Source: Hyphomicrobiales bacterium
GTDB taxonomy: Bacteria; Pseudomonadota; Alphaproteobacteria; Rhizobiales; Rhizobiaceae
NCBI GenBank assembly: GCA_900470155.1
Contig: UBZT01000009.1
Span: forward strand, 827,524 to 891,523
DNA length: 64,000 nucleotides
Reading direction: 5' to 3'
Shown: in pieces, positions 9,203 to 12,920 of the stretch
How the letters are laid out: each line of letters opens with the position of its first letter
Position numbering within the stretch: position 1 is the first letter of the stretch
The notes under the pieces: generated by a model
What the model saw: the letters and a program-made list of their open reading frames with translations, nothing else
The model's database searches: none
Told to the model about the DNA's origin: nothing
Translations under genes and position numbers: made by a program

Positions 9203-9217
9203 GTTTTTGTTTTGTTC
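9203..9217 (+). promoter_or_regulatory. LexA-like (SOS) box upstream of ruvC
   Basis: GTTT-TTGTTTT-GTTC differs by one base from the alphaproteobacterial LexA box GTTC-N7-GTTC. It lies 45-59 nt upstream of the ruvC ATG. Damage-inducible control of ruv genes is known in bacteria; here it is an inference from the motif. Confidence 0.4.
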
Positions 9218-9261: not shown

Positions 9262-9774
9262 ATGACCAGCACGATTCGCATCATCGGCATAGACCCGGGC
9301 CTCCGCCGCTGTGGCTGGGGCGTCATCGAGACACTGGGAAATTCGCTGCGCTTCGTCGCCTCCGGCACCGTGACCTCGGATGGCGACATGGATCTTGCCT
9401 CGCGTCTGTGCCAGTTGCATGACGGACTGGCCGAAGTGGTGCATGCCTATCAGCCGCACGAGGCAGCCGTCGAACAGACCTTCGTCAACAAGGATGCGGT
9501 CGCGACGTTGAAGCTCGGCCAGGCACGCGGCATCGCCATGCTGGTTCCCGCGCGCGCCGGCCTGCCGGTTGCCGAATACGCGCCAAATGCGGTCAAGAAA
9601 GCGGTCATCGGCGTGGGTCACGGCGACAAGAAGCAGATCCACATGATGCTGAAGATCCTGATGCCCAAGGCCGAATTCAAGGGCAATGACGCCGCGGATG
9701 CGCTGGCGATTGCCATCTGCCACGCTCACAATCGCGGCGGCGAACGTATGCGCAAGATCCTGGCAAACGCCTGA
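9262..9774 (+). CDS. ruvC: Crossover junction endodeoxyribonuclease RuvC
   Basis: Holliday-junction resolvase that cuts four-way junctions together with the RuvAB branch-migration motor. The 170-aa length is normal. The four metal-binding acidic residues are visible: D11 (GIDPG), E71 (VEQTF), D143 and D146 (GNDAADALA). The start at 9262 gives the usual [14 protein letters not shown]-terminus; a longer in-frame extension begins at 8629 but overlaps the divergent oxidoreductase gene. Only a weak ribosome-binding sequence precedes it. The ruvC-ruvA distance is enlarged by an inserted toxin-antitoxin pair. Confidence 0.97.
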
Positions 9775-9780
9775 TTTGTT

Positions 9781-9809
9781 CTTGACTTGTTCTCAATACC
9801 ACGATAGGT
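9781..9809 (+). promoter_or_regulatory. Possible promoter of the first toxin-antitoxin pair
   Basis: CTTGAC (9781-9786), a 17-bp spacer and ATAGGT (9804-9809) resemble an alphaproteobacterial sigma-70 promoter. The -10 element runs into the palindrome at 9807-9829, so a bound repressor could occlude it. Confidence 0.4.
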
Positions 9810-9829
9810 AATACTCAAGAGGTATTACC
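9807..9829. promoter_or_regulatory. Palindromic operator overlapping the antitoxin ribosome-binding site
   Basis: Perfect inverted repeat GGTAATAC-N7-GTATTACC ending on the base before the antitoxin ATG. The Shine-Dalgarno-like AGAGG sits in the centre. AbrB/MazE-type antitoxins commonly repress their own promoter through such palindromes. The same sequence could also fold in mRNA and mask the ribosome-binding site. Confidence 0.6.
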
Positions 9830-10078
9830 ATGCGAGTTACTGAAAAAGGCCAGGTCACGATCCCGAAAAATGTCCGGGCCAATCTCGGCATTCAGGCGGG
9901 CAGCGAAGTCGAATTCGAGCTTCGCGGCGATTTAGCAGTGTTGCGCCTCATCGAGCCTCCGATCGACGCCAGCCAGCGCGAAGCGCAGGAACTCTTACAG
10001 CATTTGCGGCGCCATCAGGGATCCATGTCCCTCGGCGAACTCAGCGGCGACGAGTTCTACCGACTGCTGCGAGACTGA
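9830..10078 (+). CDS. AbrB/MazE/SpoVT-family antitoxin (first pair)
   Basis: An 82-aa protein with an N-terminal swapped-hairpin AbrB DNA-binding domain (MRVTEKGQVTIPKNVRANLGIQ pattern, residues 1-40) and an acidic, Gln-rich C-terminal tail (about 45-82) of the type that wraps the toxin. Expected to neutralise the PIN toxin encoded 3 bp downstream and to autorepress through the palindrome just before its start. It sits in the same direction between ruvC (55 bp upstream) and ruvA. The family is clear; pairing is inferred from context. Confidence 0.88.
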   Translation: MRVTEKGQVTIPKNVRANLGIQAGSEVEFELRGDLAVLRLIEPPIDASQREAQELLQHLRRHQGSMSLGELSGDEFYRLLRD

Positions 10079-10081
10079 TCG

Positions 10082-10498
10082 ATGCGAACCCTTGTCGACA
10101 CCAATGTCCTCATCGACGTCTTTCATACGCCGAGTACGTTTACCGACTGGTCGACTGCACAATTGGTCGTCGCCAGAGCACAGGGCCATTTGCTGATCAA
10201 TCCATTGATTTATGCCGAAATGGCTGCGGGCTACGCAACACATAGCGATCTGGAAAGTGCGCTTGCGCCTGCTCTGTTCGTCCGCGAGGACCTGCCATGG
10301 GAGGCTGCCTTCGCGGCCGGTCACGCCTTCCTGCAGTATCGCCGATCTGGTGGCGAAAAACGATCGCCGCTCCCTGATTTTTACATCGGTGCCCATGCGA
10401 TGGTGAAAGGCTACCGACTGCTAAGCCGCGATGCCGCCAGATATCGCAGCTATTTTCCATTGCTCCCTCTCATCTCGCCCGAAACCCACCCCCTTTAA
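10082..10498 (+). CDS. PIN-domain toxin, VapC-like (first pair)
   Basis: A 138-aa PIN-fold ribonuclease toxin. The acidic active-site set is present: D6 (LVDTNVLID), E46 (YAEM), D99 (PDFYIGAHA) and D117 (LLSRDAARY), so the enzyme appears intact. VapC toxins usually cleave tRNA or rRNA; the target here is unknown. It starts 3 bp after the antitoxin stop and ends 23 bp before the ruvA start, so ruvA may be read from the same transcript. Confidence 0.88.
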
Positions 10499-10521
10499 TC
10501 GCAAGCGCGCGGACACCCTTC

Positions 10522-11139
10522 ATGATCGGCAAACTCAAAGGCACCATCGATGAAATCGGCGACGACCATGTGCTCGTCGACGTGCACGGCGTCTGCTACG
10601 TCGCCCATTGTTCGTCGCGCACCCTGGGACGACTCGGCTCGCCCGGCGAAGCGGTGGTGCTGTTCATCGAGACCTATGTCCGCGAGGACCAGTTGAAGCT
10701 GTTCGGTTTCCTGAATGCCCTGGAACGCGAATGGTTCAACCTGCTGCAATCCGTCCAGGGCGTCGGCGCCAAGGTGGCATTGGCTGTCCTTTCGACCCTG
10801 ACACCGGGCGAGCTCGCCAACGCGATCGCATTGCAGGACAAGACCTCGGTATCGCGCGCGCCGGGCGTCGGCCCGAAGGTTGCGGTCCGCATTGTCACCG
10901 AACTGAAGAACAAGGCACCGGCCTTTGCCGGTGAAGCCGCCGCCAATATCGGCCTCAAGCAGGAACTCGGCGAAGGCGTCGCATCAGCCCCGGTGGCAGA
11001 CGCAGTATCCGCGCTCACCAATCTCGGTTATTCCCGCGACCAGGCCGCCAATGCGGTTGCGGCGGCACTGAAAAACGGCGGCGAGGACGCCGACAGTGCC
11101 AAGCTGATCCGCCTGGGGCTGAAGGAATTGTCGCGGTAG
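10522..11139 (+). CDS. ruvA: Holliday junction branch migration protein RuvA
   Basis: A 205-aa DNA-binding subunit that holds the Holliday junction and loads RuvB hexamers. Three domains are visible: the N-terminal OB fold ([24 protein letters not shown]), tandem helix-hairpin-helix motifs ([17 protein letters not shown] and [17 protein letters not shown]), and the C-terminal three-helix domain that contacts RuvB ([20 protein letters not shown]). It is separated from both ruvC and ruvB by toxin-antitoxin pairs. Confidence 0.97.
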
Positions 11140-11158
11140 CCGATTGCATAGATTGAGC

Positions 11159-11186
11159 CGCCTTACTATTCTATTTTTGTAAGGCG
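11159..11186. promoter_or_regulatory. Inverted repeat upstream of the second antitoxin
   Basis: Perfect 8-bp arms CGCCTTAC / GTAAGGCG around a 12-nt AT-rich loop, 20 nt after the ruvA stop and 14 nt before the antitoxin start. It could be an antitoxin operator or a hairpin in the transcript. The sequence differs from the palindrome of the first pair. Confidence 0.4.
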
Positions 11187-11200
11187 TAGCGGAGCGTGAA

Positions 11201-11479
11201 ATGGGTTCGAAAATAACGATCACGTCTAAGGGCCAGTTGACGATCCCGAAGGACCTCCGCGAGCAGCTGAACGTGCAGCCCGGAGACAAGTGCTATGCAT
11301 GGGTGCGCAATGGCGAATTGGTGATCATACCGCGCAACAAGTCGGTTCGCGATCTTGCCGCGATACTTGGCAAGCCTCCGACCGGGGCATTGTTGTCCGA
11401 CGAAGAATTAGACGACGCGGTCATGGACGCCGCCGTCGAGCGCTTTGAAAAAGCGACCACGCGAAGCAAACGCGGATGA
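11201..11479 (+). CDS. AbrB/MazE/SpoVT-family antitoxin (second pair)
   Basis: A 92-aa protein with an N-terminal AbrB domain (ITITSKGQLTIPKDLREQL, residues 4-22, continuing to about 48) and an acidic toxin-binding tail (LSDEELDDAVMDAAVERFE). GGAG lies 7 nt before the ATG. Its last four bases overlap the start of the PIN toxin gene, indicating translational coupling. The pair lies between ruvA and ruvB. It is clearly distinct from the first antitoxin, so this is not a recent tandem duplication. Confidence 0.88.
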   Translation: MGSKITITSKGQLTIPKDLREQLNVQPGDKCYAWVRNGELVIIPRNKSVRDLAAILGKPPTGALLSDEELDDAVMDAAVERFEKATTRSKRG

Positions 11480-11883
11480 ACCAGCGCCTTGGCATCGATA
11501 CCAACGTCCTGCTGCGGCTTGCCATCCCGGACGATGCCGAGCAGGTTGACGCGGTCACAAGACTGCTGGATCGACTGGAGCCTGACGATACCCTGTTCGT
11601 TGATCTTTCAGTTATTTTGGAGGTGAATTGGGTCCTGAAGCGCAAGTATCGCTATCCGAAGGAACGGATTCTCGATTTCCTTCAATCCGTGCTGGAGCGC
11701 CGTGAATTTGAAATTGCAGCCTATGAAGCGGTCGGCAATGCCGTGCATTTCTGCAGGATTTTCAACGTGGATTTCGCCGACGCCCTGCTGAGCGAATTGA
11801 ACCGGCTTGACGGTTGCAGCAGAACAATGACCTTCGACAAAAAGGCCGCTGCCCGCGTGCCCGGAATGGAACTTCTCGCATGA
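11476..11883 (+). CDS. PIN-domain toxin, VapC-like (second pair)
   Basis: A 135-aa PIN-domain ribonuclease of the type II toxin class. Active-site acids D8 (GIDTNVLLR), E49 (ILEVNWVL), D102 (DFADALL) and D121 (MTFDKKAA) are all present. It starts within the antitoxin stop (ATGA overlap), and its own stop TGA overlaps the ruvB ATG, so antitoxin, toxin and ruvB form a chain of overlapping frames. The toxin RNA target is unknown. Confidence 0.88.
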
Positions 11884-12920
11884 GCATATCGAACCCCATC
11901 CTGGCCCCGGAAAAACGCGGCGAAGACATCGACACGGCACTGCGCCCGCAGTCGCTGGATGAATTCACCGGCCAGGCGGAAGCGCGGGCCAACCTGAAGA
12001 TCTTCATCGAGGCGGCGAAGAACCGTGGCGAGGCGCTCGATCATGTGCTGTTTGTCGGCCCGCCCGGTCTCGGCAAGACGACACTGGCCCAGATCATGGC
12101 CAAGGAACTCGGCGTCAACTTCCGCTCGACCTCCGGTCCGGTGATCGCCAAGGCCGGCGATCTGGCCGCGCTTCTGACCAATCTCGAAGAGCGCGACGTT
12201 CTGTTCATCGACGAGATCCATCGCCTGAGCCCGGCGGTCGAGGAAATCCTCTATCCGGCCATGGAGGACTTCCAGCTCGACCTGATCATCGGCGAAGGCC
12301 CGGCGGCCCGCTCGGTGAAGATCGACCTGTCGAAGTTCACGCTTGTCGCCGCCACCACCCGCCTCGGCCTGCTGACCACGCCGCTGCGCGACCGTTTCGG
12401 CATTCCCGTCCGTCTCGCCTTCTACACCGTCGAGGAACTGGAACTGATCGTCCGCCGTGGTGCGCGGCTCATGGGCCTCGGCATGACCGATGACGGCGCC
12501 CGCGAGATCGCGAGACGCGCCCGCGGGACACCCCGCATCGCCGGTCGTCTCTTGCGCCGCGTGCGCGACTTTGCCGAGGTTGCCCGCGCCGAAGCCGTCA
12601 CCCGCGAGATCGCCGACGAGGCCCTGACCCGCCTGCTCGTCGACAACATGGGCCTCGACCAGCTCGACAAGCGTTATCTCAACATGATCGCTGTGAATTT
12701 CGGCGGCGGACCGGTCGGCATCGAAACCATCGCCGCCGGCCTGTCCGAGCCACGCGATGCGATCGAGGACATCATCGAGCCCTACATGATCCAGCAGGGT
12801 TTCATCCAGCGCACGCCGCGTGGCCGCGTCCTGACCGCCAATGCCTGGAAACATCTCGGCATGCAGCCGCCGAAGGATCTGGAAGCCGCGCAGTTCCGCC
12901 TCACCCTCGAAGATGAGTAG
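11880..12920 (+). CDS. ruvB: Holliday junction branch migration ATPase RuvB
   Basis: A 346-aa AAA+ motor that drives branch migration with RuvA. Walker A GPPGLGKT spans residues 60-67, Walker B is LFIDEIHRL, and a winged-helix C-terminal domain ends in [14 protein letters not shown]. The start [16 protein letters not shown] is typical of the family. It overlaps the preceding PIN toxin by 4 nt (ATGA) and has no promoter space of its own, so its expression probably depends on the upstream toxin-antitoxin or ruvCA transcript. Confidence 0.97.

Follow-up and report, generated by a model that had tools for sequence, protein, structure and literature searches.

The window analysed here, a stretch of 64,000 nucleotides (nt) of contig UBZT01000009.1 from a member of the Rhizobiaceae (Hyphomicrobiales bacterium, assembly GCA_900470155.1), contains a ruvCAB operon in which each of the two gaps between the genes is occupied by a toxin-antitoxin pair. 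We consider it likely that these gaps, called slot 1 (the ruvC-ruvA gap) and slot 2 (the ruvA-ruvB gap), are docking slots for exchangeable VapBC-type modules, and that slot 1 lies behind an old LexA-controlled promoter. An initial reading of the window, the first-pass annotation, had proposed that each gap holds an AbrB-type antitoxin followed by an intact PIN toxin in the operon direction, and the positions of the open reading frames (ORFs) together with Pfam matches confirm this, the antitoxins being of AbrB/MazE type. The same annotation took the pairs for either two insertions or an old arrangement. The trees and class changes presented below point to neither; they indicate old slots whose contents have been replaced in place repeatedly, and the phenomenon is larger than that annotation described.

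A comparison of the ruvCAB locus across Rhizobiaceae, proposed in the first-pass annotation, showed that the arrangement is widespread. The sample consists of 150 loci from 64 genera of the family (counted by the codes in the search output): 62 loci from the genus of the window and 88 from outside it, the latter being 88 of the 149 family genomes sampled there, for the most part the ones whose RuvA is closest. One further locus, L083, duplicates the genome of L060 and is counted only where this is said. A pair was counted when tblastn with the window proteins detected both members, and pairs of other types are consequently under-counted. The ruvA gene was found in 62 of 63 genus genomes and in all 151 sampled family genomes; on the stretch examined three loci are without ruvC and one without ruvB. 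Slot 1 holds a pair in 74 of the 150 loci and slot 2 in 82: both slots are filled in 54 loci, slot 1 only in 20, slot 2 only in 28 and none in 48. For the genus the corresponding numbers are 33, 9, 14 and 6, and for the other family members 21, 11, 14 and 42. Slot 1 is filled in 29 of the 64 genera, slot 2 in 31 and either of them in 39. Four loci (L109, L123, L125 and L138) have ORFs in the ruv gaps which are not window-type toxin pairs; those of L109, L123 and L138 match no Pfam family at 0.01.

The evidence for replacement comes from trees of the joined antitoxin-toxin alignments (74 loci for slot 1 and 82 for slot 2; IQ-TREE with LG+G4 and fast search). When the module alignments are forced on the ruv topology with re-optimised branch lengths, 4606 log-likelihood units are lost for slot 1 and 6415 for slot 2, and the approximately unbiased (AU) test rejects the ruv topology with p 0.00011 and 0.00064, respectively. 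Among locus pairs with Ruv proteins at least 99% identical, a comparison in which RuvB is partial in many loci, module identity ranges from 0.43 to 0.99 in slot 1 (14 locus pairs) and from 0.39 to 1.00 in slot 2 (39 locus pairs). The Ruv proteins of L009 and L010 are 99.8% identical and their modules 45% and 39%; for L047 and L048 the Ruv proteins are 99.9% identical and module 2 is 40% identical. The DNA of L009 and L010 is 93-94% identical in ruvC and ruvA, so this module difference is one between species and not between strains. The 74 slot-1 toxins fall into classes I (9), II (35) and III (30), with the window in class I, and the ruv tree requires at least 20 class changes over the 74 loci, or 10 or more with the genus rows alone. 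Clustered at 55% identity, the slot-2 toxins give 21 groups, and among the genus rows these require at least 18 changes. Presence of a pair changes at least 28 times on the ruv tree for each slot over all 150 loci, by gains or losses.

Pairs which are old, vertically inherited and fast-evolving would explain the occurrence of the same slots in 39 of 64 genera, and also the separation of the slot-1 toxins, in one or two clusters, from their outside relatives. We regard this explanation as highly improbable, as vertical inheritance with fast evolution is ruled out by the AU tests and the likelihood losses, and the divergence of the L009 and L010 modules also speaks against it.

The second part of our reading concerns the promoter in front of slot 1. 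The alphaproteobacterial LexA motif is given as GTTC-N7-GTTC (PMC3323433). The first-pass annotation suggested possible SOS control from a motif at 9203-9217; this control now looks plausible on stronger grounds than those claimed, and a better box is a different one, since GTTCTTGACTTGTTC at 9778-9792 in the first gap matches the motif better than GTTTTTGTTTTGTTC at 9203-9217. In the 64 kb GTTCN7GTTC is found 3 times against 2.26 expected, and 40 of 100 shuffles contain as many; the motif alone is thus not rare at this length and the weight of the box rests on its conservation. In slot 1, GTTCTTGACNTGTTC is found in 72 of the 73 occupied loci with ruvC in view, and L026 has one mismatch. Among the 147 loci with ruvC, the box is present in 72 and missing in 1 of those with a slot-1 pair, and present in 4 and missing in 70 of those without; the four are L092, L113 and L134 (gaps of 205-353 nt, L134 retaining the antitoxin) and L128 (80 nt). 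The 15-mer GTTCTTGACTTGTTC occurs once each in 41 of 63 genus genomes and its reversed control in 0, and with 41 genus loci carrying the slot-1 box these are the same sites. The consensus over 73 loci reads TTGACT, 17 nt, TAagTa, overlapped by GTAATAC...GTATTAC. Slot 1 thus has a putative GTTC-N7-GTTC operator at a candidate promoter, as expected for a member of the LexA regulon, and GAAC-N7-GAAC, the motif on the other strand, lies upstream of recA and lexA in the same genome. Exact palindromes with arms of at least 6 nt, of which the short ones may be due to chance, are present in 59 of 73 slot-1 leaders and 59 of 82 slot-2 leaders; in the window both leaders have perfect palindromes, which are candidate operators. 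Upstream of ruvC, within about 200 nt, GTTY-N7-GTTY is found in 131 of 148 loci with ruvC (L083 still included): 62 of 73 when the ruvC-ruvA gap is above 600 nt and 69 of 75 others. This upstream box appears weaker than the slot-1 box and may be likened to the double SOS sites of some Vibrionaceae.

In the order as a whole 41 of 297 genomes match the box, and 30 of the 47 places, the window's own included, were examined as loci. The ruvA gene is present in 13 of the 30, and in 13 of these 13 the box lies at the ruvC end or between ruvC and ruvA; in eight it begins 8 nt before the ruvC end as called. The box is found 54 nt before ruvA in L265 and L271 and 119-159 nt before it in L263, L268, L272, L284 and L285, in all cases with no pair; L266 and L275, from other families, have VapBC pairs behind the box. 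Since outside the family the box occurs directly before ruvA without a pair, it probably served ruvAB first, and judged from these sequences the module probably lies within an older ruvAB promoter of the SOS type. The other 17 box loci have no ruvA on the stretch examined, so in the order the box sequence is not exclusive to ruv. The 15-mer was rejected as a class-wide ruv feature: it is found in 9 of 387 genomes of the class, with ruvA nearby only in the two family genomes among them (in this survey L314 ends at a contig end). Two further loci deserve mention. In L273, an order member of another family, a Phd/YefM antitoxin and a PIN toxin stand behind the same box, an independent occupation of slot 1, and in L264 an ORF of about 1.1 kb in reverse orientation separates ruvC from the LexA box, which is still 53 nt before ruvA.

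The exchanged parts have constant ends. Between L009 and L010 identity extends from ruvC through TGATTTGTTCTTGACTTGTTC, breaks off after it and is regained at the ISPETHPL codons before ruvA. In a comparison of 515 genus locus pairs of different class, the first positions behind the ruvC stop (+0 to +17) have an identity of 0.97-1.00, which then drops to 0.39, 0.25 and 0.17. For slot 2 (851 pairs) identity falls as soon as ruvA has ended and reaches 0.79-1.00 in the final 15 nt before ruvB, with some conserved toxin codons further upstream also scoring high in the profile; in L047/L048 and in L001/L003 the slot-2 leader palindrome is partly common despite differing coding parts. The slot-1 toxins end in [DE]THP in 67 of 74 loci, compared to 0 of 72 printed tails of relatives elsewhere. 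Of 572 toxin-1 relatives in named genomes the best 80 were compared; eight of these lie in ruv, and all eight have the box (GTTCN7GTTC at most 600 nt upstream) and the tail; they are from a Rhizobium, Shinella, Aurantimonas, Endobacterium, Hoeflea and three Mesorhizobium records, and two of the eight, L156 and L199, are apparently the genomes of L003 and L099. The 72 non-ruv relatives among these best 80 have neither the box in the 600 nt upstream nor the [DE]THP tail, and box and tail are absent from all three rhizobial plasmid toxin-1 loci inspected, one of which ends in ITPHP. In slot 2 a MELL-type tail ends 79 of 83 toxins and is absent from 8 of 8 plasmid relatives inspected (of 70 records found). 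This tail sets a GGAA about 8 nt before the ruvB start. The positions of the breakpoints suggest homologous recombination.

Tandem modules and remnants of modules are found as well. Slot 2 of L099 holds two complete pairs; slot 1 of L139 has two boxes, with an orphan antitoxin (class II-like by eye) ahead of a complete class III pair; and slot 2 of L136 has an extra toxin end. In L018 the ends of a deleted pair 2 remain and much of the pair is lost, in L016, L017 and L051 only MELLA-like codons are left, and in L035 a damaged box and PETH codons. INTERMEDIATES and these scars would fit an insertion beside the resident module followed by deletion. As a separate observation, toxin 1 of L018 has a G in place of the fourth catalytic D, and this genome is seemingly losing both modules.

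It had been argued in the first-pass annotation that loss of the locus would be penalised. With 42 of 88 outside-genus loci without a pair, the many presence changes and the deletion scars, a strong penalty is not supported, and the addiction argument is weak because the pairs are often absent or lost. Selfishness may play a part: addiction modules could settle where a conserved operon gives read-through and where their removal tends to damage ruv, the SOS promoter being incidental. The patchy presence, the scars and the tandem copies agree with this, as do the plasmid relatives of both toxins, the many phyla with toxin-1 relatives and the different module type in slot 1 of L273. It is a real possibility which we place slightly on the improbable side, since the pair is accompanied by the box in 72 of 73 cases, the active sites are kept, and the 42 of 88 outside-genus loci with neither pair mean that linkage is not a strong hold.

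The active sites were followed at positions which we take to be the acidic catalytic residues of PIN proteins. In toxin 1 D6, E46 and D99 are found in 74 of 74 and D117 in 73 of 74; in toxin 2 D8 is found in 83 of 83, E49 in 82, and D102 and D121 in 80 each. The first-pass annotation held that degraded active sites in the relatives would count against a coupling of toxins and repair; the acids are kept in nearly all toxins. Within classes of the genus the median ratio of nonsynonymous to synonymous substitution rates, dN/dS, from pairs with dS 0.1-1.2 (L034 left out; pairs not independent) is 0.127 for antitoxin 1, 0.110 for toxin 1, 0.120 for antitoxin 2, 0.083 for toxin 2 and 0.062 for ruvA. 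Judged by these values selection on the modules is purifying, with active sites kept, and decayed relics are thereby ruled out.

A further reading is a growth arrest triggered by damage or by phages. SOS would induce the module, the antitoxin would be degraded, and the PIN RNase would halt growth or abort infection, with phage antidotes favouring variety. We find this possible and rather doubtful. The SOS-like promoter at slot 1 supports it, and so do the purifying selection within classes and the mixing, among closely related species, of three classes in slot 1 and 21 clusters in slot 2, a variety that neutral exchange could also yield. To our knowledge there is no phage or damage phenotype for these loci, which counts against it. 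A precedent in its favour is yafNO of E. coli (PMC2814082).

The modules could also be an expression device, in which promoter, VapBC autoregulation and translational coupling set the levels of RuvA and RuvB and toxicity is secondary. Palindromes overlap the slot-1 promoter, toxin 2 and ruvB overlap by 4 nt in 75 of 83 toxin-2 loci, and in R. leguminosarum the phenotypes of vapC, ruvA and ruvB insertions are of a single class (PMC11406972). We think this unlikely; the catalytic residues are kept although such a device would not need them, and 48 of the 150 loci have no pair at all.

The origin of the slot-1 toxins was studied in a tree of 32 of them (the 74 thinned at 75% identity; L118, with unread bases, omitted) and 36 outside toxins (thinned from 48, of 75). 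The slot label needs 2 changes, one origin appears in 12% of 200 bootstrap trees, and the window-type (class I) toxins group among outside relatives. The best reading of this tree would be one to a few captures followed by exchange between slots. A phage origin is not favoured: in a search made with toxin 1 only there was no match in 50,697 phage records at E 1e-5, and 16 viral contigs encode toxin-1 relatives of 28-50% identity, none with ruvA on the stretch examined. A donor in the same genome was also rejected. The genome has 15 other PIN matches, of which 13 were compared (L244 and L248 left out), and the best is only partial, 38% over 74 residues of toxin 1. This match, L249 (G000:C25:196307-196492), is a partial toxin-1-like gene of the window's own genome, apparently broken.

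The features of the operon are collected in Table 1. MazE_antitoxin of Pfam matches antitoxin 1 with 40.0 and antitoxin 2 with 37.4 bits (cut-off 24.7), and PIN matches toxin 1 with 32.9 and toxin 2 with 38.3 bits (cut-off 23.6); RuvC, RuvA and RuvB have clear Pfam matches. By Pfam both pairs thus consist of an antitoxin with a DNA-binding domain followed by a PIN toxin, as in VapBC. Against the NCBIfam VapC equivalog NF047959 toxin 1 scores 36.2, below the cut-off of 80, and membership of that named subfamily is not claimed; toxin 2 has no match to an NCBIfam VapC equivalog model at 0.1. No sequence in the PDB matches either toxin at E 0.01. In BLASTP the two toxins share a 7-residue match only (E 0.16), and the antitoxins have their N-terminal DNA-binding part in common (39 residues, E 2e-8). 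These comparisons rule out duplication of one pair and bear out the earlier view that the two pairs are different. Neighbouring genes overlap by an ATGA at two junctions, antitoxin 2/toxin 2 and toxin 2/ruvB. The ruvC query for the searches was taken from 9253.

Table 1. Genes and sequence elements of the ruvCAB operon in the window
Feature	Position	Strand	Remark
GTTTTTGTTTTGTTC	9203..9217	+	LexA-like box upstream of ruvC
ruvC	9262..9774	+	
GTTCTTGACTTGTTC	9778..9792	+	probable LexA box with -35 hexamer TTGACT (9782-9787); constant left end of slot 1
TAGGTA	9805..9810	+	candidate -10, 17 nt after the -35 hexamer; weak here
GGTAATAC-N7-GTATTACC	9807..9829	+	palindrome, candidate antitoxin operator overlapping the -10
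antitoxin 1	9830..10078	+	AbrB/MazE-type
PIN toxin 1	10082..10498	+	VapC-like, slot-1 class I
ETHPL-tail codons	10481..10495	+	constant right end of slot 1
ruvA	10522..11139	+	
CGCCTTAC-N12-GTAAGGCG	11159..11186	+	palindrome, candidate operator of pair 2
antitoxin 2	11201..11479	+	AbrB/MazE-type
PIN toxin 2	11476..11883	+	VapC-like
codons MELLA + stop	11866..11883	+	constant right end of slot 2; GGAA spaced like a ruvB ribosome site; ATGA overlap with ruvB
ruvB	11880..12920	+	

In the mechanism that we propose, slot 1 would be placed between an old LexA-controlled promoter and ruvA. The operator of the slot-1 module would overlap the -10 of this promoter, and LexA bound at the box and the antitoxin complex would both repress. 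SOS induction would then lead to transcription of antitoxin 1, toxin 1 and ruvA across their junctions, and by read-through of pair 2 and ruvB. Slot 2 would have its own candidate operator, and ruvB would have both its ribosome site and its start codon inside the toxin 2 gene. The coding parts, presumably of active toxins, would be replaced by homologous recombination between the constant ends (ruv genes, LexA box, toxin tails), probably via tandem intermediates, and the modules would be maintained by linkage to ruvAB and repeated re-acquisition. Going further, and only tentatively, one might see in the ruvCAB of Rhizobiaceae an SOS-controlled docking site with constant promoter and 3' ends, where exchange of RNase toxin-antitoxin modules between species provides a lineage-specific growth-arrest or anti-phage toxin coupled to Holliday-junction repair; the modules would then be like alleles of one polymorphic locus and not independent insertions.

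Several points weigh against the reading of the gaps as docking slots behind a LexA-controlled promoter. The -10 of the window is poor and a sigma-70 promoter scan lists no site there. The loci are from related genomes, and a Fisher p for the association of box and pair is therefore not a fair probability. The right end of slot 1, clear in L009/L010, is blurred in the averaged profile, partly because toxins end in either ETHP or ETHPL; same-class pairs look similar there. The other ORFs in some gaps mean that the slots are not reserved for toxin pairs. Finally, since a single origin of the slot-1 toxins is possible, there is less certainty about a capture from outside than about the exchange between slots.

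Whether chromosomal toxin-antitoxin pairs serve the cell is an open question. Different modules at the same position (in slot 1 behind the same promoter), next to near-identical Ruv proteins and with box and active sites kept, amount to a natural swap experiment; in L009/L010 and L047/L048 the modules differ and the Ruv proteins hardly do. The constant surroundings of the exchanged pairs, a promoter probably controlled by DNA damage among them, make a link between DNA damage and toxin directly testable.

What is already in print is one VapBC pair before ruvA with insertion phenotypes. Going by titles, the opening lines of abstracts and the papers cited here, the literature found on ruv with toxin-antitoxin terms gives no account of swapping, of a second slot or of the box, and a ruvA site may figure in subscription papers that deal with LexA boxes of rhizobia; ruvA, ruvB and ruvC are absent from the main text of a survey of type II systems (PMC2701414). 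The published pair is that of R. leguminosarum 3841, where RL3987 (vapB) and RL3988 (vapC) lie directly upstream of ruvA and ruvB, and an AbrB-type antitoxin and a PIN toxin thus stand directly before ruvA as in the window (PMC11406972). In the insertion data of that report each stage depends on vapC, ruvA and ruvB, and vapB, a gene with few insertion sites, is needed from attachment on; ruvC is not in its Table 3, and the authors attribute the phenotype to the VapBC system (PMC11406972). As the pair is upstream of ruvA, polarity on ruvAB would be an alternative, with which the published insertions are compatible, and the effect of vapC insertions on root attachment could come from lost expression of ruvAB. 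In contrast to the present analysis, the parts of the report compared here concern one pair in one strain, and describe no LexA box, second slot or replacement between species (PMC11406972).

Generic VapBC systems with an AbrB-type antitoxin include toxin-1 relatives on Synechocystis and Paracoccus plasmids, 51-58% identical to toxin 1; unlike slot 1, the relatives elsewhere that were inspected lack the box and the [DE]THP tail. The dinB-yafNO operon of E. coli is similar in that a type II pair is placed in an SOS operon; induction of yafNO by DNA damage comes from the dinB promoter, and the pair also has an autoregulated promoter of its own (PMC2814082). It differs in that YafO is RelE-like and not PIN, that the pair follows dinB, and that the sections compared report no exchangeable slots (PMC2814082). 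For Vibrionaceae one or two genes inserted in ruvCAB are described, which the section compared does not name, and in some species ruvC and ruvAB each have a LexA site of their own; the same paper notes that in Alphaproteobacteria, too, the promoter of ruvCAB has LexA sites (PMC3323433). The operon of the window resembles theirs in its two SOS promoters, putative here, and in the genes inserted between ruvC and ruvAB (PMC3323433).

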